From Magnetococcales bacterium HCHbin5 (lineage in GTDB: Bacteria > Pseudomonadota > Magnetococcia > Magnetococcales > Magnetaquicoccaceae), in NCBI GenBank assembly GCA_002753505.1, contig PEAG01000031.1, positions 1 to 38,283 of the forward strand: a stretch of 38,283 nucleotides of DNA. The letters run 5' to 3'. The notes under the pieces are model-generated. The model was not told the origin of the DNA, did no database searches, and worked only from the letters and a program-made list of their open reading frames with translations. Shown here one piece after another: positions 4,186 through 30,366 of this stretch. Position numbers and translations under genes: made by a program. The first letter of the stretch is position 1. Each line of letters opens with the position of its first letter.

Positions 4186-5999
4186 ACCGTAGCGGTTATT
4201 GCAATGAGATTCGGGAAGGTCATATTGGCCAACGGGTAACCGTCTGTGGTTGGGTCAATCGGCGGCGGGATCATGGTGGGGTTATTTTTATTGATTTGCG
4301 GGACCGTTCCGGCATGGTGCAGGCGGTGTTCAGCCCAGAGCGGCAGCCGGAGGTGCATCGACAGGCGCATGAATTGCGCAGCGAATATGTGGTGCGGTTG
4401 GTGGGTGAGGTGGCCCGGCGGCCCCAGGAGACGGAAAATCCCAAGCTGCCAACCGGCATGATTGAGATCCATGTGGATAGTCTGGAAGTGCTGAATGTGG
4501 CGCAGTTTTTGCCGTTTCAGTTGGATGAGGAGGGGGTGGGAGAGTCCACCCGGTTGCAGCATCGTTTTCTCGATTTGCGTCGGCCGGAGATGCAGCACAA
4601 CCTGCAGTTTCGCCATCGGGTGACCCAGACGGTGCGGCGTACGTTGGATGAGGCGGGTTTTCTGGAGATTGAGACCCCCATGTTGACCCGGAGTACACCG
4701 GAGGGGGCGCGGGACTATCTGGTTCCATCCCGGGTCAACCCTGGTCAGTTTTATGCCTTGCCCCAGTCACCGCAACTGTTCAAGCAGTTGTTGATGATTG
4801 GGGGGTATGATCGCTATTTTCAGGTTGCCCGCTGTTTTCGGGATGAGGATTTGCGTGCCGACCGGCAGCCGGAATTTACCCAGATCGATCTGGAGATGTC
4901 TTTTGTGGTGGCGGACGATGTGATGGCCGTTGCCGAGCAGGTGATGGGAAAAATATTTGAGGAGGCTTTGAAACAGAGTTTGCCTTTGCCTTTGCCGCGT
5001 TTGACCTATAACGAGGCGATCAGCCGTTATGGGTTGGATGCGCCGGATTTGCGTATTCCGCTGGAGTTGACCGATTTGACGGCTGTCATGCGTCACACGG
5101 GGTTCAAGGTTTTTGCCCAGGCGGCCAATCAGAGCGGCAACCGGGGTGGTCGGGGGTTGGTCAAGGCGTTGCGGGTGCCGGGCGGGGCCCAGATGACCCG
5201 CAAACAGATTGATGATTATACCGAGTTTGTTGCCATTTACGGGGCCAAGGGGCTGGCCTGGATCAAGTTGAACGGGCCCTGGCAGGAGGAGGGTTGGCAG
5301 TCTCCCATTGTCAAATTTTTCTCGCCGGAGGAAAAGGAGGCGATTGTGGCGGCGACCGGGGCGCAGACCGGGGATATTCTTTTCTTCGGGGCGGATCGGG
5401 CCAGTATTGTCAATGAGTCGTTGGGGCGGTTGCGGGTCAAGATCGGGAGGGAGTTGAACCTGCTGAATGGTACGCCTTTTTCTTTTGTCTGGGTGACCGA
5501 TTTCCCGTTATTGGATTGGGACAATGAGGCGCGTCGGCATGTGGCGGTTCATCATCCGTTCACTGCGCCGGTGTTGGCGGATTTGCAGCGGTTGGATAAC
5601 ACCGCAATGGCGGAGGAGTCTCATTTGGATGAGGTGCGGTCGCAGGCTTATGATCTGGTGTTGAATGGAACCGAGATCGGGGGGGGCTCCATTCGTATTC
5701 ACGATCCGGCGTTGCAGCAAAAAATGTTGGCTTTGCTGGGTATTGAGGCGGCAGAGGCGGAGGAAAAGTTTGGCTTTTTGTTGCGTGCCCTGGAGTTTGG
5801 TGCCCCGCCCCATGGGGGGTTGGCGTTCGGGTTGGACCGTTTGGTTGCCATTTTGTTGGGGGTGGACTCCATTCGGGATGTGATTGCGTTTCCAAAGACC
5901 CAGAAGGCGGGTTGTGTGTTGACCCAGGCTCCGTCGTCGGTGGATCCGCTGCAGTTGCGGGAGTTGCATTTGCGAAGCACCTACCAGCCCAAAGGCTGA
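4182..5999 (+). CDS. aspS: Aspartyl-tRNA synthetase (bacterial type)
   Basis: This 605-residue class II synthetase attaches aspartate to tRNA. The N-terminal OB-fold anticodon domain includes [13 protein letters not shown] (residues 21-33). Motif 2 is seen as [17 protein letters not shown] (218-234), and motif 3 near the C-terminus as [15 protein letters not shown]. The large GAD insertion of bacterial AspRS fits the length. Residue 31 is His; from memory, His here is linked with relaxed tRNA specificity (AspRS that also charges tRNA-Asn), but the second position I would check does not clearly match, so this stays open. The gene overlaps the preceding one by four bases and is followed directly by the palindromic repeat element. 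Confidence 0.97.
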
Positions 6000-6062
6000 G
6001 CGTCGAGTCATAACTGTTCGCAACCTGCCGTTTCGTTGCACCCGTCGTTTCTGCTTTGCCTC

Positions 6063-6140
6063 AAACGATTGCAGGGGTCCGGGGACCGTCACGGTCCCCG
6101 GTGGGGTGCAGGGGCGAAGCCCCATATGCGCTAACATGAT
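6063..6140 (+). repeat. Solo half-copy of the palindromic repeat, locus 1
   Basis: It begins AAACGATTGCAGGGGT, contains the near-palindrome GGGGACCGTCACGGTCCCC, and ends in GCCCCATATGCGCTAACAT. A matching module in the opposite orientation is found at 30290-30366. It starts 64 bases after the aspS stop. Confidence 0.85.
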
Positions 6141-6155
6141 TGCGGTCTTCTTTTT

Positions 6156-6609
6156 AACGATTGCAGGGGTCTGGGGACCGTCACGGTCCCCAGCGGGGTG
6201 CAGGGGCGGAGCCCCTGCATGAACTGCGCGTTTTCCCAAAGCAAATTTTCGCAGAAAATTTGCGCAACGCGCACAAAACCGCCCCGCAGGGGCGACCTTG
6301 GGAGGGCGGCAGCCCGACTCGCACGGTTATGTTACGGAAAATGTTTGGATAAAAAACCAGAACGTTCGGGCCTTCCGCTTTTTGTTCGATACAAGGCCAG
6401 GATCGGTTTTTTCTCCAAGCCAAATAACCTTTTGCCCGCTCTCAGTCGGGCTGCCGCCCTCCAGGAGTGCCCCTGCGGGGCGTTTTAGGCGCGCTGCGCC
6501 CATTTGCTGCGCAAATGGGCTTTCGGGAAAGCGCGCCCGTCACATGCAGGGGCTTTGCCCCTGCACCCCACCGGGGACCGTGACGGTCCCCGGACCCCTG
6601 CAATGGTTT
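6156..6609. repeat. 455-bp composite palindromic repeat element, copy 1
   Basis: Two arms of about 165 bp face each other around a roughly 120-bp centre. Each arm is a string of nested hairpins: GGGGACCGT/ACGGTCCCC, GCAGGGGC/GCCCCTGC, a CGCAAAT-type stem and GCCCCGCAGGGGC. The outer ends read AACGATTGCAGGGGT and its near complement. The arms match each other at roughly 80 percent by eye. Copy 2 at 29805-30259 has the same centre (for example GATACAAGGCCAGG) in the same orientation. Short open frames within it look like by-products of the repeat. It could be a MITE-like element, a REP/BIME-type family or a structured RNA. Confidence 0.85.
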
Positions 6610-6623
6610 AAAAGAATGGTACC

Positions 6624-8270
6624 CTACCGCGTCGCCAACCCAATGATGGTATGGTAATCGTTCCGAAGGGCCTCTTTGTCGACCGGATAAGTAAAATTGC
6701 ACGGCATGGCACGGCAATAAGCCTGATCCGTGACAAAATCCAGGATCAGCCGATAAAGATTAAAGTGGGTAAATTTATCATATTTTTCAATCTTTCCTGC
6801 CCGGAATACCAACAGACGATTGATCAGAAGCCGATCCGCTACATTCTGGAAATAGCCCAGCGTATCATACTCCCCGATGCCACCCGGCAAGGGGGGGAGA
6901 TGATCACTGACCAGAATGATGAGCGCAGAGGGATCCAATGCGATCAACTCCTTGATATAACGCGCCAAAGCCTTGGTGCGATAGTAGTGCTGATTGATAA
7001 TTTTTTCCACCGCCATGGGCACCCCGGGTACGCTGAATCGGGCCGGACCAGCCTTGGCATCCAGATCAAAAGGAAAGTGCCCATACACAGTCAGCAGATA
7101 ATTCAGGAAAGGCTTTTTCGCGGCCAACAACCGCTCCACATGGCCCAGGTTCTGGGTAAACAGATCTTCATCAAAGAAAAATTTGTTGTCATCCTCCTCC
7201 TCACCCTTGGAGAGATAGGTGTCAGAACCCGGCACATACTCCTTGGCAAAATAGACGGCGTCAAAATCCAGGCTCTGATAGGCATGGACCGTATTGAAAA
7301 ATTCAGGCTTGTAGGCATTAGAGGCGGTTGTCGTATAGCCAAGATTTTTTAAAATACCGGGCAGACAATAGGTTTTGGAGCCGGTAAAAATGTTGAACTC
7401 AATCTCGTCAAACTCCTGAAAAGCCGGCACCCCGCAGAGTACCTCAAACTCAGGCTGGGCGGTATAACCACCAAAGATGGGAGAGACGGAAAACCCCACC
7501 TTGTCACCCACCAGTTTCAGATAGTCCGGGTGAATGGGCTGAACCGTCTTGGGTACCTTGTCAAACAGGGTAGGATCAATAAAGCTTTCCAGGACAATCA
7601 AATGAACATTCCTGCCATTGCCCCGCTGACCCAACTCCGCGGGCAGACGCAGGGATAACTGCTCTATGTCACGAAAATTTTTAAGATTTTGTAATGTCTC
7701 CGTTCGCTTGGCTTCATTGTAAAGCGCGGTGGCAAACCGGCCATTGTACTCCACATTGACGACCGTGGAATAATAGATCACCTCAATGGTCAATCTCTTA
7801 AAAACATTGATAAATTCTGTCGGATATGCAAACGGCGCGCTGCAAACGACCAGCACGGGCAGCAGTCCCACGACCCCTGCCAGGGAAAACCGTATGGAAA
7901 GGATAAACCCGACGATGGGAAGCAACACAAGCAGACCAAGCAGCAGAGCCAACCCGGTATCCAGGACTCCCACCAATTCAGGCAGTTGCGTAAGCTCTAC
8001 CCATTTCGGAATGCGGGCAAAACGGATATAATAATAGTCGTGACCCAGGTAGAGTGCGGCCAGGGGCAGAGCGGCCACAACGGCTTGCCAGCGTGACGGC
8101 TTGATCAGGAGGTTGAGGCAAAAATAGAGATAAAGCAGCAGTGGCACCTCCATACGCCATACCCCCTTGGTCATGTGAATGATCGGGGAGAGTTTGATAT
8201 AGAGCAATACGGTTGCCAAAAACAGGGTGTATCGATTGAAGAGAAGAGTGGAAACAATTTTAACAAACAT
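6624..8270 (-). CDS. Membrane LTA-synthase-family sulfatase-fold phosphotransferase
   Basis: Predicted 548-residue inner-membrane enzyme. The N-terminus has about five hydrophobic segments (roughly 8-28, 42-58, 63-80, 100-128 and 132-150). A periplasmic alkaline-phosphatase/sulfatase-fold domain starts near residue 220. Likely metal and catalytic residues are E228 (VLESF), nucleophile T270 (FGGYTAQPEFEVLCG), H398 (YGHFPF) and D456-H457 (SDHLPP). This is the pattern of LtaS and of OpgB/MdoB phosphoglycerol transferases. A Gram-negative member most likely modifies a periplasmic glucan or surface glycan, but the substrate cannot be read from sequence. I chose ATG 8270 because AGGA lies upstream and the 64 residues before it look non-coding. 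It is transcribed convergently with aspS and divergently from the Fe-S directon. Confidence 0.88.
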   Translation of the reverse strand: MFVKIVSTLLFNRYTLFLATVLLYIKLSPIIHMTKGVWRMEVPLLLYLYFCLNLLIKPSRWQAVVAALPLAALYLGHDYYYIRFARIPKWVELTQLPELVGVLDTGLALLLGLLVLLPIVGFILSIRFSLAGVVGLLPVLVVCSAPFAYPTEFINVFKRLTIEVIYYSTVVNVEYNGRFATALYNEAKRTETLQNLKNFRDIEQLSLRLPAELGQRGNGRNVHLIVLESFIDPTLFDKVPKTVQPIHPDYLKLVGDKVGFSVSPIFGGYTAQPEFEVLCGVPAFQEFDEIEFNIFTGSKTYCLPGILKNLGYTTTASNAYKPEFFNTVHAYQSLDFDAVYFAKEYVPGSDTYLSKGEEEDDNKFFFDEDLFTQNLGHVERLLAAKKPFLNYLLTVYGHFPFDLDAKAGPARFSVPGVPMAVEKIINQHYYRTKALARYIKELIALDPSALIILVSDHLPPLPGGIGEYDTLGYFQNVADRLLINRLLVFRAGKIEKYDKFTHFNLYRLILDFVTDQAYCRAMPCNFTYPVDKEALRNDYHTIIGLATR

Positions 8271-8462
8271 GAGTCGTTGATCCTGGGTGGTGCAGCCCGT
8301 TCGGTTACTGAAGCACCGGAGCATAGAGTCATGCCATCCAAAAGTCAAAAGCAAAATTCCCCGCTTGTGGTATGACCGGGTGCAGTGTTCAAGAATGGGT
8401 GGTGCAAACTTTCCGATACTGGAGGACAATCCGGGTGGTGCTGTGGAAATATTGCTTTTCAT

Positions 8463-25478: not shown

Positions 25479-25536
25479 CACGGATGTTGTTTCCCGCCTT
25501 TCCGTACTGCGCCCTTTTCCACGCTGGTTGATCAAC

Positions 25537-28500
25537 ATGTCCGCGAATCGACAAGAGGAGTTTCGTACCCAACTCCTGGCTGTATTTGAGCGGTTGCCAA
25601 AACTGCAACGCATTATTTTGCAACTGCTTTCTGTTTTTCACGGTTCTGTCCACCGGGCTGACCTGGCGAAATATCTCTACGAGATAGGGGTGACCGGTGA
25701 TGCGGGCCGAATGCTGTCGGTCAATGCCTTGATGCCCATTCTGTCCGCCATGGGCAAACAAAAAATTTTTTCAGACAACCCCTATTTTTTCAGCTGTCAC
25801 GAGGCCATTGCCTGGGATGTCACCCTTTCGGCGGTGAAAGAGGGAACGTTCCACAAGATGGCGGCTGCAGCCCAGAAACTGTTGCCGGCCATCTCCAACT
25901 ATTCCTATCGCTATCAGGGGTATGAACTGGTCAGTTACAACCGCTGTCTGCGGGAGATCCGGATCGGTCTTTTCAGTCAGGATGCGCAGCAGGTGGAGAG
26001 CTATCTGCAACTGGCCCGCGCACAATACCCTGAAGATGTTGCCCTCTCGCCGCCGTTGCTCACCCTTTGCATGCAACCGTTCAATGCGCAGTGGTTTGCC
26101 GAATTGCCCAAGGCCATTCAACTCGTTGCGCTGGAAGAGATGGTGCCGTTTCTGGTGAGCAAACTGGAGCCGTTGGCGACCCTTCAACCTCTGTTGGCCG
26201 GCTACCGTTTGTTGGCGGTTGAGGAGGGTGGGGACCGTTTTCGTGCCCTCTGGGTGATCACTTTGCTGGCGCAGGGCGATCTGGCCGTTGCGCAGGAGGT
26301 TTTGCATGGCGATCTTCCGGTGGCCGATGCCCAACTGCTGGAGGGGTGGTGGTTGTTTTTGCGGGGGGAAAATGAGGCGGCCCTTGAGCGTTATGAGAAG
26401 GTTTTTCGCAAGGGAGGATGCGACCATAAAATCTGTTTTGCGCATCTGGGCGCACCCTTTTTTCTGCTGGCGTTACTCAAAGGCCAGGATCCCACCCAAA
26501 TCGGGAGAGTGGCTGAATTTTTGGCCTTTGCACGCAAAAAAAAGCTGCTGGCGCACACCACGATCTATCAAAGCCTGGAAGCCCTGCTGTTGGCGCAGCG
26601 GAACGAGTTGGTCAAGGGGGGGCTGCTTTTGGATGCTGAAGAGAGCTCTCTGGCACCGATGCTCGGCCACGCTTCCCGGCACCTCAATATCAAGAGGATA
26701 TTTTCCCTCGGATTTTTATTCAAGTCGGTGGTGCGCTACTGGATCCATGCAGAGCAGGACTCCAACAGCTTGACAGAGTTGAAAATGGCCTTTGAGCAGG
26801 CCAAAAGAGAGGGTTATCGCTGGGTGGCCATGGAGTATGCGGAGCTGCTGTCCCGGGCGGGGGTGCCGGAGAAAGAGGATTATTATCATCCGTATGCCCG
26901 TACAGTGCAGGAGGAGACCGGGTTGCGCTCCCTGTTGCCGATTGTGCCGAAGGAGGAGGGATGGGAGCGTGCCCTGCGTGCCCTGCTGCTGTTAAGCCCG
27001 GGAAAGGAAAAAGTGGGCAAGCCGGGCAAAGAGGGGGTCAACCGTCGTTTGATCTGGTTGATTCGGTTGTCGGGGAGCATGGTGGATTTGATCCTGCCCA
27101 AGGAACAGAGCATGAACGCCAACGGTACCTGGTCCAAGGGCCGTATGGTCGGGCTGAATCGGCTGGCGGATAAGGATCTGGATCTCCATTTTTTGACAGA
27201 GCAGGATTGGCGGATTGTGCAGACGCTGGAGCGGGAATATGTCTCGTATGGCAGGACGCGGCTGCTCTTTCCCTGGCAAAAGGCCATGTTGGCGATGGTG
27301 GGCCATCCGCTGGTTTTCTGGGAGGAGTCCCCTTCGGTGCGGGTGGAGGTGGTGCGGGCTGAGCCGGAGCTGATGGTGCAGAAAGCGCGCAATCAGATCA
27401 AGGTTCAATTTGCCCAACAAATTGTTCAACAGGGGGTGATTGCCAGTCAGGACTCTCCCACCCGGTGCCAACTGATTGAGGTAACCGCTGCGCACAAGGC
27501 GATTGCCGATGTATTGGGGGCAGAGGGGTTGCATATTCCCACCCAGGGCAAGGATCAGGTGCTGTCGGTGATGCATGCCCTTTCTCCCCTGGTGACCATT
27601 CAGTCTGCCATTGGGGGTGGGCAGGACTCCATGGAGAGTATTCCGGCTGATTCCAGGCCCCATGTACAGTTGCGGCCGTTTGGTGCGGGGTTGAAACTGA
27701 CGCTGCTGGTGCGGCCTTTTGGATCGGACGGCCCCTATTTTGTCCCGGGCAAGGGGGGGCGGACCATTATTGCGGAGGTGGGGGGCAAACGGGTGCAGAC
27801 CCATCGCGCCTTGCCGGAAGAGCAGAGTCGGGTCATGCGGTTGATGGCGGCCTGTCCCAGTTTGGCGGCCGGGGAGGATATGCAGGCGGAGTGGTGTTTT
27901 GAAGAGCCGGACAGTTGCCTGGAACTGTTGTCCGAGTTGCAGGAGTTGCGGGACGAGGTGCAACTGGAGTGGCCGGAGGGGGAGAGGTTGCGGGTAAGTC
28001 GTCCGGTATCGATGGAACAATTGCGGGTGCAGGTACAGCGTGACAATGACTGGTTTGCCATGAAAGGTGAACTGCGGGTGGACGATGCCGTATTGTTGGA
28101 GATGGATGCCTTGTTGGCGTTGGTGTTGAATGGTTCGAGTCGATTCATTCCCCTCGGGGATGGGCAGTTTGTGGCCTTGACGGAAAAATTTCGCAAGCAG
28201 CTGCTGGAGTTGGAGGCATTCTCCAGCCAGAGCGGTCGGGACCGGCGGTTTCATCCCCTGGCGGCTCCCCTGTTGCAGGAGATTGCCGAGCAGGCCCAGT
28301 GGGTCAAGGTGGACAGGGAGTGGAAGCAGCATTTGCAACAGATTCAGGCTTCCCAGGCATTGACGGTGGTATTGCCTTCCACCTTGCAGGCTGAGTTGCG
28401 GGATTATCAGTTGGCGGGCTACTACTGGTTGTCGCGTCTGGCGGCCTGGGGGGTGGGGGCCTGTCTGGCCGATGATATGGGGTTGGGCAAGACCATTCAG

Positions 28501-29772
28501 GCGTTGGCACTCATTTTGAGCCGTGCCAAAGAGGGGCCGGTATTGGTTGTCGCGCCCACCTCTGTCTGTTTGAATTGGGTGCGGGAGATTGAGCAGTTTG
28601 CGCCCACTTTGCAGGCCATTTTATTGGCCAGCAGTCGGCGGCAGCAGACATTGGATGGTTTGAAGCCCTACGATGTGCTGATTTGCAGTTATGGTCTGTT
28701 GCAGCAAGAGGGTAAAATATTGGCTGCGGTGTCGTGGCAGGTGGTGGTATTGGATGAGGCTCAGGCCATCAAAAACAGGGGGACCAAGCGGTCCAAGGCG
28801 GCCATGGCGTTGAAGGGCAGCTTTAAAATGATTTTGACGGGCACACCGATTGAAAACCATTTGGGGGAGTTGTGGAATCTGTTTCATTTTATCAATCCCG
28901 GTCTGTTGGGCAGTATTGAATCGTTCAACAACCGGTTTGCCACACCGATTGAGCGGTACAGTCTCAAGGAGGCGCGTGGTCGTCTGAAAAAGTTGATCCA
29001 GCCTTTTATTTTGCGGCGTACCAAGAGTCAGGTGTTGGCTGAGTTGCCGCCGCGGACGGAGATCACGCTGCAGGTGGAGATGAGCCCGGAGGAGACCGCT
29101 TTTTATGAGGCGTTGCGGCGGCGGGCCATTGAGCAGATCGAAAACATGGAGGGTTCGATTGAGCAGCATCAGTTGCAAATTTTTGCGGAAATCATGCGGT
29201 TGCGTCGGGCCTGTTGCAACAGTCGTCTGATTGTCCCGGACAGTCCGATTGCCAGCACCAAGTTGGAACTTTTTTGGAGTGTGGTGGAGGGTTTGCTGGA
29301 AAACCGGCACAAGGTGTTGGTATTCAGTCAATTTGTTGATCATTTGGCCATTATCCGTGAGCGGTTGGAGCAGGAAAAGGTGCGTTACCAGTATTTGGAT
29401 GGCAGCACGCCGATGCAGGAGCGGCAGCGGCGGGTGGAGGCGTTTCAGGCTGGGGAGGGGGATCTGTTTTTAATCAGTTTGCGGGCGGGTGGCATGGGCA
29501 TCAATCTGACGGCAGCGGATTATGTGATTCACATGGACCCCTGGTGGAATCCTGCTGTGGAGGATCAGGCCGCCGACCGGGCTCATCGTATTGGTCAGCA
29601 GCGTCCGGTGACCATTTATCGTTTGGTGACCAAGGGGACCATTGAGGAGATGATTGTGGAGTTGCATCAGCACAAGCGCAGTCTGGCGGACGGGTTGTTG
29701 GATGGCAGTGATGTGAGTGGTCGATTGACGGCCAGTGATCTGTTGCGCATCATTCGTGGTCAGGAGGTGTGA
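25537..29772 (+). CDS. SNF2-family ATP-dependent helicase/translocase, 1411 residues
   Basis: A DNA translocase of the Swi2/Snf2 class. The first 900 or so residues have no domain I can name; residues 50-480 look like TPR-type helices. The SNF2 core starts near 945: Walker A DDMGLGKT (979-986), DEAQ box (1073-1076), LTGTPIENHLGELWNLF, the second RecA lobe with VFSQFVDHL and LDGSTPMQERQ, and motif VI ending DRAHRIGQ. Known bacterial relatives are RapA and YwqA-like proteins; those act on stalled RNA polymerase or have unknown roles. ATG 25537 is preferred to the in-frame TTG 25528; no strong ribosome site is seen. Confidence 0.93.
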   Translation: MSANRQEEFRTQLLAVFERLPKLQRIILQLLSVFHGSVHRADLAKYLYEIGVTGDAGRMLSVNALMPILSAMGKQKIFSDNPYFFSCHEAIAWDVTLSAVKEGTFHKMAAAAQKLLPAISNYSYRYQGYELVSYNRCLREIRIGLFSQDAQQVESYLQLARAQYPEDVALSPPLLTLCMQPFNAQWFAELPKAIQLVALEEMVPFLVSKLEPLATLQPLLAGYRLLAVEEGGDRFRALWVITLLAQGDLAVAQEVLHGDLPVADAQLLEGWWLFLRGENEAALERYEKVFRKGGCDHKICFAHLGAPFFLLALLKGQDPTQIGRVAEFLAFARKKKLLAHTTIYQSLEALLLAQRNELVKGGLLLDAEESSLAPMLGHASRHLNIKRIFSLGFLFKSVVRYWIHAEQDSNSLTELKMAFEQAKREGYRWVAMEYAELLSRAGVPEKEDYYHPYARTVQEETGLRSLLPIVPKEEGWERALRALLLLSPGKEKVGKPGKEGVNRRLIWLIRLSGSMVDLILPKEQSMNANGTWSKGRMVGLNRLADKDLDLHFLTEQDWRIVQTLEREYVSYGRTRLLFPWQKAMLAMVGHPLVFWEESPSVRVEVVRAEPELMVQKARNQIKVQFAQQIVQQGVIASQDSPTRCQLIEVTAAHKAIADVLGAEGLHIPTQGKDQVLSVMHALSPLVTIQSAIGGGQDSMESIPADSRPHVQLRPFGAGLKLTLLVRPFGSDGPYFVPGKGGRTIIAEVGGKRVQTHRALPEEQSRVMRLMAACPSLAAGEDMQAEWCFEEPDSCLELLSELQELRDEVQLEWPEGERLRVSRPVSMEQLRVQVQRDNDWFAMKGELRVDDAVLLEMDALLALVLNGSSRFIPLGDGQFVALTEKFRKQLLELEAFSSQSGRDRRFHPLAAPLLQEIAEQAQWVKVDREWKQHLQQIQASQALTVVLPSTLQAELRDYQLAGYYWLSRLAAWGVGACLADDMGLGKTIQALALILSRAKEGPVLVVAPTSVCLNWVREIEQFAPTLQAILLASSRRQQTLDGLKPYDVLICSYGLLQQEGKILAAVSWQVVVLDEAQAIKNRGTKRSKAAMALKGSFKMILTGTPIENHLGELWNLFHFINPGLLGSIESFNNRFATPIERYSLKEARGRLKKLIQPFILRRTKSQVLAELPPRTEITLQVEMSPEETAFYEALRRRAIEQIENMEGSIEQHQLQIFAEIMRLRRACCNSRLIVPDSPIASTKLELFWSVVEGLLENRHKVLVFSQFVDHLAIIRERLEQEKVRYQYLDGSTPMQERQRRVEAFQAGEGDLFLISLRAGGMGINLTAADYVIHMDPWWNPAVEDQAADRAHRIGQQRPVTIYRLVTKGTIEEMIVELHQHKRSLADGLLDGSDVSGRLTASDLLRIIRGQEV

Positions 29773-29804: not shown

Positions 29805-30259
29805 AAACGATTGCAGGGGTCCGGGGACCGTCACGGTCCCCGGTGGGGTGCAGGGGCAAAGCCCCTGCATGAATGGCGCGTTTATCCCAAAGCCCATTTT
29901 CGCAGAAAATGGGCGCAACGCGCCCAAAACCGCCCCGCAGGGGCGACTTTGGGAGGGCGGCAGCCCGACTCGCACGGTTATATTGTTGAAAATATTTTGA
30001 TAATAAAGCAAAACTTCCGGATCTGCTGCTTTTTGTTTGATACAAGGCCAGGAACGGTTTTTTTTCAAACCCTCCCAAACTTGGCCAGCTCTCAGTCGGG
30101 CTGCCGCCCTCCAGGAGTGCCCCTGCGGGGCGTTTTGGGCGCGCTGCGCCCATTTGCTGCGCAAATGGGCTTCTGGGAAAGCGCGCCCTTACATGCAGGG
30201 GCTTTGCCCCTGCACCCCACTGGGGACCGTGACGGTCCCCAGACCCCTGCAATCGTTTT
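29805..30259. repeat. 455-bp composite palindromic repeat element, copy 2
   Basis: Same structure and orientation as the element at 6156-6609: two hairpin-rich arms and a conserved but diverged centre (GATACAAGGCCAGG, TCAGTCGGGCTGCC). It starts 33 bases after the SNF2 stop. The left-arm versions of the two loci resemble each other more than they resemble the right arms, so the elements were copied whole. Confidence 0.85.
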
Positions 30260-30289: not shown

Positions 30290-30366
30290 TCATGCTAGCG
30301 CATATGGGGCTTTGCCCCTGCACCCCACCGGGGACCGTGACGCTCCCCAGACCCCTGCGATTGTTT
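30290..30366 (-). repeat. Solo half-copy of the palindromic repeat, locus 2
   Basis: Reverse complement matches 6063-6140, including the end GCCCCATATGCGCTAGCAT. One base in the central palindrome differs (GACGCTCCCC instead of GACGGTCCCC). At this locus the solo copy is downstream of the composite, whereas at locus 1 it is upstream. Confidence 0.85.

Follow-up and report, generated by a model that had tools for sequence, protein, structure and literature searches.

The element in the window and its parts

We analysed a 38,283-nt stretch (hereafter the window) of the genome of Magnetococcales bacterium HCHbin5, an uncultured relative of the magnetotactic cocci, in which aspS (ORF end at 5999; NCBIfam aspartate--tRNA ligase, 852 bits) faces a minus-strand ORF with a sulfatase domain (6624-8462). 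The first-pass annotation had placed a non-coding composite of nested hairpins directly after aspS, between these convergent genes, and both the site and the composite structure were confirmed. A full element of 454 bp, here termed the core, occupies 6156-6609 on the plus strand, as delimited by its sequence, its repeats, and comparison with the cores of sample A (described below); a solo left arm precedes it at 6063-6123 (plus strand). This half-copy has the terminus AAACGATTGCAGGGG and hairpin 1, together with hairpin 2 in truncated form. It repeats both ends of the core, forming a 61-nt inverted pair with 6549-6609 (97% complementary in the window repeat analysis) and, from 6064 to 6123, a direct repeat of 6156-6215 (93% identical). 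The intervening spacer, ATATGCGCTAACATGATTGCGGTCTTC.. (6124-6155, plus strand), is by eye like the spacers between arm units elsewhere. The arms of the core are inverted repeats of each other, as had been claimed: by sequence and repeat analysis, 6148-6221 and 6543-6616 are 91% complementary over 74 nt.

Reading inward from its left end, the core holds hairpin 1 CTGGGGACCGTCACGGTCCCCAG (6171-6193), hairpin 2 TGCAGGGGCGGAGCCCCTGCA (6199-6219), a nested hairpin 3 (6225-6273, with an outer stem of 6225-6232 and 6266-6273 around an inner hairpin at 6241-6263), hairpin 4 CGCCCCGCAGGGGCG (6280-6294), and the innermost inverted arm GGAGGGCGGCAGCCCGACT (6301-6319), whose 19 nt are 100% complementary to the corresponding right-side arm at 6444-6462, identified by repeat analysis. 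Between these two arms lies an asymmetric centre (6320-6443, plus strand) that is better conserved around CTTTTTGTTTGATACAAGGCCAGGAACGG and a T-run, and in which other copies carry tandem expansions. The right side follows with hairpin 4 GCCCCTGCGGGGC (6469-6481), which was drawn by eye and is paired differently in the local model of the core alignment, a nested hairpin 3 GGCGCGCT..AGCGCGCC with the inner part GCCCATTTGCTGCGCAAATGGGC (6488-6537), hairpin 2 TGCAGGGGCTTTGCCCCTGCA (6545-6565), and hairpin 1 CCGGGGACCGTGACGGTCCCCGG (6571-6593). Hairpins 1 and 2 of both sides were recognised from the repeats, hairpin 2 also from the core alignment, and left hairpin 4 from the sequence and the core alignment. 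Double changes were found at two pairs in each hairpin 1, in both stems of left hairpin 3, and at the inner pairs of right hairpin 3.

The 19-nt palindrome GGGGACCGTSACGGTCCCC occurs six times in the window with at most two mismatches, compared with a mean of 0.00 in 100 shuffles, and the predicted RNA fold of 6055-6620 reaches -378 kcal/mol, whereas 100 shuffles average -230 kcal/mol (sd 7.6; z = -19.6). Another complete copy, at 29806-30257 (plus strand), is flanked by genes of the same direction and precedes gyrA; a pattern search placed a solo right arm beside it (30306-30365, minus strand). The ORF preceding this copy (25528-29772) encodes a 1,414-aa SNF2-family helicase whose NCBIfam matches fall well below their cut-offs.

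The annotated non-coding nature of the element was upheld. A coding element was rejected, as core lengths in the family step by single bases (454, 455, 456, 457, and 458 bp) and the consensus has long open frames on both strands; the 119-aa ORF that overlaps the element in the window (6298-6657) has no Pfam match at an E-value cut-off of 0.001. An Rfam scan of the window at the gathering threshold returned two tRNAs only, and the element matches no family.

Architecture of the family

Further copies were examined in two samples of the genome, together 1.15 Mb: sample A, comprising the window and 40 other stretches (833 kb), and sample B, 20 further stretches (320 kb) drawn mostly from sample-A contigs. 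Clusters with facing arms followed the order (+)n core (-)m in 81 of 82 cases (62 of 63 in sample A and all 19 in sample B), their arms pointing inward and any extra arms standing outside the core in tandem. One sample-A cluster (L094) spans only about 220 bp and has no full core. Starts of same-side arms were spaced 47-117 bp apart in sample A, with the exception of one far pair. The 1.15 Mb held 81 full cores. Among the 62 of sample A, 37 measured 454-458 bp and 50 measured 430-500 bp, and their chromosomal orientations were nearly balanced (33 vs. 29). The outer boundary is sharp and common, reading AAACRATTGCAGGGG in a profile of 122 ends. The core, about 455 bp long, has a set of local hairpins on either side of an asymmetric centre, the two sets being inverted relative to each other, and its ends are precise (AAACRATTGCAGGGG...CCCCTGCAATYGTTT).

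Short-unit tandem arrays stand at the centre of several longer cores. Expressed as arrays per kb, their density was 2.48 in the 100-bp flanks of clusters (16 arrays), 1.69 in core centres (15), and 0.53 in other intergenic DNA (53), giving plain ratios of 4.7 beside clusters and 3.2 in core centres relative to the last. The centre of one core contains a 30-copy array of the 8-bp unit TTTTTGGA (L089, 3561-3799). Neighbouring units within a locus carried identical palindromes in 57 of 99 cases, compared with 22% for random pairs.

Local hairpins and the long stem

Covariation was assessed in an alignment of 51 rows, in which the window element is present twice with slightly different ends and which omits the 12 of 62 sample-A cores that measured under 430 or over 500 bp. 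The local-hairpin model, with 100 pairs, left 17 cells unpaired and showed two or more double-change cells at each of 10 pairs (132 such cells, a tally of related copies rather than of independent events). At the only variable position with rival partners in the two models, the local partner gave a mutual information of 0.88 and the distant partner 0.00. Across 264 palindrome-like matches, the variable pair of the palindrome read CG in 172 and GC in 60, against CC in 14 and GG in 8. Within the limits of such a comparison of copies, these patterns show that pairing of the local hairpins has been preserved by double changes.

It had also been proposed that RNA from the element could fold into one very long imperfect stem. 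Such a fold is thermodynamically possible, and with 5014 of 5043 arm-to-arm cells paired and 29 unpaired, pairing by itself speaks neither for nor against it; as the conserved structure it was set aside. Of its 99 pairs, only one carries repeated double changes (7 cells, with all four letter combinations occurring there and the two sides varying independently), compared with 10 in the local hairpins; the arm-to-arm pairs stay paired because the arms vary little, and compensatory support is lacking. At the variable pair of the palindrome, the left and right copies of hairpin 1 are of opposite type in 22 of 81 cores (C:G vs. G:C), so that each hairpin is kept while the arm-to-arm pair is broken; both are G:C in five cores. 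The copies look as if each hairpin had changed independently.

Copy number and distribution among genomes

Counting the arms, a check that the first-pass annotation had suggested, established a multi-copy family: an oriented arm pattern gave 883 matches in the 4.19-Mb genome and its reversed control none, and a second arm pattern gave 903, compared with at most 48 in each of 47 other genomes of the class. Any arm match at all was found in 19 of these 47, with the maximum of 48 in one sister (G002). A search with the element region yielded at least 190 matches in the genome itself from 40 scored candidates. Among the matches listed, from no more than 10 candidates scored in each genome, those of full length were confined to the element's own genome; in sister species the longest extended over about 170 bp from one half, examples being G001 (131 bp at 83%) and G006 (164 bp at 79%). 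Extrapolation from the ratio of 62 cores to 249 arms in sample A suggests roughly 220 full cores genome-wide. Elements account for 5.1% of all bases in the 833 kb of sample A and for 28.6% of the non-coding ones; these densities are not genome averages, as the samples favour long contigs and known carriers of the element. We would regard about 5% of sequence and 29% of non-coding DNA as an unusual load for a bacterium.

As a measure of relatedness, AspS is 85% identical to its homologue in the Magnetococcales bacterium nWRX1bin1 MAG and 81-86% identical in five of six genomes of the same genus. A search of viral contigs with a single exact pattern and a blastn search of plasmids did not find the element. 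Other genomes have the hairpin with different paired variants, ACCATCATGGT in G018 being one. A related family in G006 resembles this one in how the hairpins follow each other on one side, with other stem letters and another centre (L056, 1350-1730; L032), and one of its copies has tandem end units with a 29-bp period. Smaller double-hairpin modules, for example GGGGTCCAGGGGGATTATCCCCCTGGTGGGGTCCAGGGGCAAAGCCCCTGG, stand behind genes in G005 and G002 (L268, L265, and L272); these perhaps represent a wider style of module from which the element was built.

Placement and orientation relative to genes

Placement was scored for 77 cores, four more lying at stretch edges, against gene calls from our own codon-usage caller rather than a curated annotation. 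Thirty-nine cores lay in convergent gaps, 35 in codirectional gaps, and three in divergent gaps; the background of all gaps of at least 30 bp, which includes the gaps holding the element, comprised 81 convergent, 375 codirectional, and 88 divergent. In codirectional gaps, 29 of the 35 cores were closer to the end of the upstream gene. A 3' gene end adjoined the left end of the core more often than the right (69 vs. 44 of 77 cores; Fisher P = 7e-6). For the 67 left ends at 3' ends in the gap analysis, which used 75 of the 77 cores, the distance from stop codon to left terminus had a median of 35 bp and ranged from -7 to 149. In the sampled stretches, judged by these gene calls, the family is shown to lie predominantly just behind gene 3' ends.

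Orientation followed transcription in 30 of 35 codirectional gaps (P = 2e-5). This bias was noticed in sample A (23 of 27), and sample B, fetched later as a test, showed it in seven of eight (P = 0.07 alone). At convergent loci, which hold about half of the cores, both orientations were found (22 plus, 17 minus). A replication-strand cause of orientation was rejected: orientation in sample A bore no relation to GC skew (P = 0.30), and convergent-locus orientation matched the majority strand of the neighbourhood in only 19 of 39 cases.

Empty sites and candidate transposases

At six or more cluster sites, sister genomes carried both flanks close together on one contig, allowing 16 site-genome comparisons. 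None of the 16 sister intervals contained the palindrome (at most three mismatches) or any 14-mer of the element centre, and between the same anchors the sister gaps measured 27-462 bp, compared with 639-1,405 bp in the element's genome; in the larger sister gaps, gene ends that did not align or a different hairpin module are also present. Two further sister gaps, of 1.4 and 3.9 kb, also lacked the palindrome and were not counted as empty sites. One site could be read by eye in all six sisters, four of which have a hairpin with a T-rich tail and two of which have double hairpins in the style of the element ends; the genome under study has a hairpin with a T-run there, followed directly by the element. 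The insertion point cannot be fixed to the base, since the intergenic DNA is too diverged from that of the sisters. At the sites read, these comparisons show the family to be absent from orthologous sister positions; it has multiplied in one Magnetococcales lineage, probably recently.

Target duplications, which the first-pass annotation had named as a point to examine, did not materialise: among 57 pairs of ends, from which clusters with more than one mismatch in the end motif were excluded, no offset from 2 to 11 and no length from 2 to 9 exceeded the permuted maximum. A classical DDE-type MITE is therefore unsupported. The sampled 1.15 Mb of the 4.19-Mb genome contained no coding parent with shared ends. 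The sole facing arm pair with a gene between its arms (1.0 kb) was considered as an autonomous parent and rejected, being degenerate and enclosing a TPR gene.

The genome was searched for transposases of the Y1 (PF01797) and Y2 (PF04986) families, and none linked to the element was found. It has one detected Y1_Tnp gene, whose best NCBIfam match is the REP-associated tyrosine transposase at 72.6 bits (cut-off 80); the whole 6-kb contig of this gene contains no palindrome with at most three mismatches and no 14-mer of the centre. On that contig (L276; G000:C130, 5998 bp), the Y1 gene stands beside an ORF for a phage-integrase N-terminal domain and a TGA-interrupted Y2 match, an arrangement that suggests a decayed mobile island. 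Among relatives, Y1 counts do not track arm counts: G005, a fragmented assembly, has no Y1 gene and 17 arms, and G008 has two Y1 genes and no arms.

Relation to known elements

MITEs are non-coding, multi-copy sequences with inverted termini that are absent from orthologous sites, all of which the element has in common with them; unlike MITEs, it has neither a target-site duplication nor a parent transposon in the 1.15-Mb sample. Group IIC introns share with it a position behind gene ends in the sense orientation, but the element is built of palindromes and the window has no Rfam intron match at the gathering threshold. REPINs consist of two short REPs. REPINs with their RAYT (PMC3116915) resemble the element as dispersed, non-coding inverted hairpins in a genome with one RAYT-like gene, but no copy of our element flanks that gene, and size and architecture differ. 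The closest general resemblance concerns REPs and BIMEs as described in PMC3733652: palindromic units, often opposed and in high copy, found mostly in unidirectional and convergent gaps behind coding regions, a placement also found here (39 convergent, 35 codirectional, and three divergent cores). The REPs of that same text are 20-40 bp long, whereas the core has about 455 bp, several different hairpins per side, and a centre of its own; nor, as far as that text describes REPs and BIMEs, do they have inward-pointing arm arrays or a left/right asymmetry relative to genes. In contrast to REPs tagged with GTAG or CGTC, the palindrome carries no unpaired tag (the 122 ends read AAACRATTGCAGGGG, and CGTC occurs only inside the palindrome). 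The element thus fails the tests that define the tagged REP superfamilies (the tag), REPINs (a linked RAYT), and DDE MITEs (the target duplication).

Literature searches, confined for the most part to content outside subscription, for palindromic or REP elements in Magnetococcus and magnetotactic bacteria, for the palindrome letters, and for nested or downstream-inserted MITEs returned no paper describing the element in its title or the opening of its abstract. The cultured magnetotactic strain IT-1, compared with Magnetococcus marinus in PMC5088516, is reported there to have many transposable elements and unresolved repeats, which made closure of its genome difficult; the word palindrome is absent from that paper. 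The annotation's remark that it did not recognise a named repeat family accordingly stands as regards Rfam and the literature found, but the element behaves in general like one of the REP/MITE kind.

Origin and maintenance of the family

We consider it probable that the family represents a mobile element built of hairpins, non-coding and non-autonomous, and akin to REP/BIME elements or MITEs, and we weighed three other accounts. The copies might instead be a functional RNA module for 3' ends, a terminator or exonuclease barrier, spread and kept in the sense direction by selection, with mobility secondary. The left end at 69 of 77 gene ends and the sense orientation at 30 of 35 codirectional loci would fit such a module, as would local hairpins kept by double changes and, at the site read by eye in six sisters, the four hairpins with T-rich tails and two double-hairpin modules of like style; a similar placement is described for known REPs in PMC3733652. 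Against it, neither window copy exceeded its shuffles in scans for promoters and terminators, and the convergent cores, about half of all, take both orientations (22 plus, 17 minus). Terminators in the gaps before the element were about as frequent as in length-matched controls (3 of 141 vs. a mean of 2.3), a comparison that says little either way because few controls score (6 of 148). We think a primarily functional module rather unlikely.

A REPIN-like system, in which the single RAYT-like Y1 transposase of the genome mobilises the hairpins, draws on the presence of that gene and its match of 72.6 bits (below the cut-off of 80), on hairpin-rich ends, and on the lack of both target duplication and coding signs. 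We find this distinctly unlikely: the palindrome is missing from the whole 6-kb contig of the gene even with three mismatches allowed, it has no adjoining GTAG or CGTC tag, and arms are present in G005, a relative with no detected Y1 gene. The family might also have arisen with no enzyme at all, units being spread and homogenised by hairpin-driven copying errors such as template switching or fold-back repair. Tandem end units, palindromes often identical within a locus (57 of 99 neighbours vs. 22% of random pairs), arrays at centres and flanks, and several stem pairs changed on both sides with few or no intermediates are all in keeping with such errors, but the uniformity of cores at unrelated loci, and the sharp termini that they share, are hard to explain otherwise than by a dedicated mechanism. 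As a full account, we judge it highly improbable.

For a mobile hairpin element, we propose that a trans-acting enzyme recognising the folded strand, of HUH/Y1 type or another transposase, may move the copies. Copies would survive mainly behind genes, where transcribed hairpins may be harmless or may cap mRNA 3' ends; we infer that the element is tolerated or used there. After insertion, the end units, the centre, and the adjoining DNA would expand in tandem, most simply through replication slippage at hairpins. The family is a new architecture for an element of REP/BIME- or MITE-like kind, with a clear end-specific placement.

A bolder reading, to which we attach little credence, is that the left end targets the 3' ends of transcripts and that sense insertion is linked either to termination or to the nascent 3' end, making the element a portable gene-end module. 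If true, such a module would have taken over a large share of the gene ends of one bacterium. The paired stem changes with few intermediates are well suited to telling selection on RNA apart from templated correction at the DNA level. With hundreds of copies, absent at the sister sites read, the family provides a natural series in which to follow how hairpin repeats spread, cluster at gene ends, and acquire an orientation preference.
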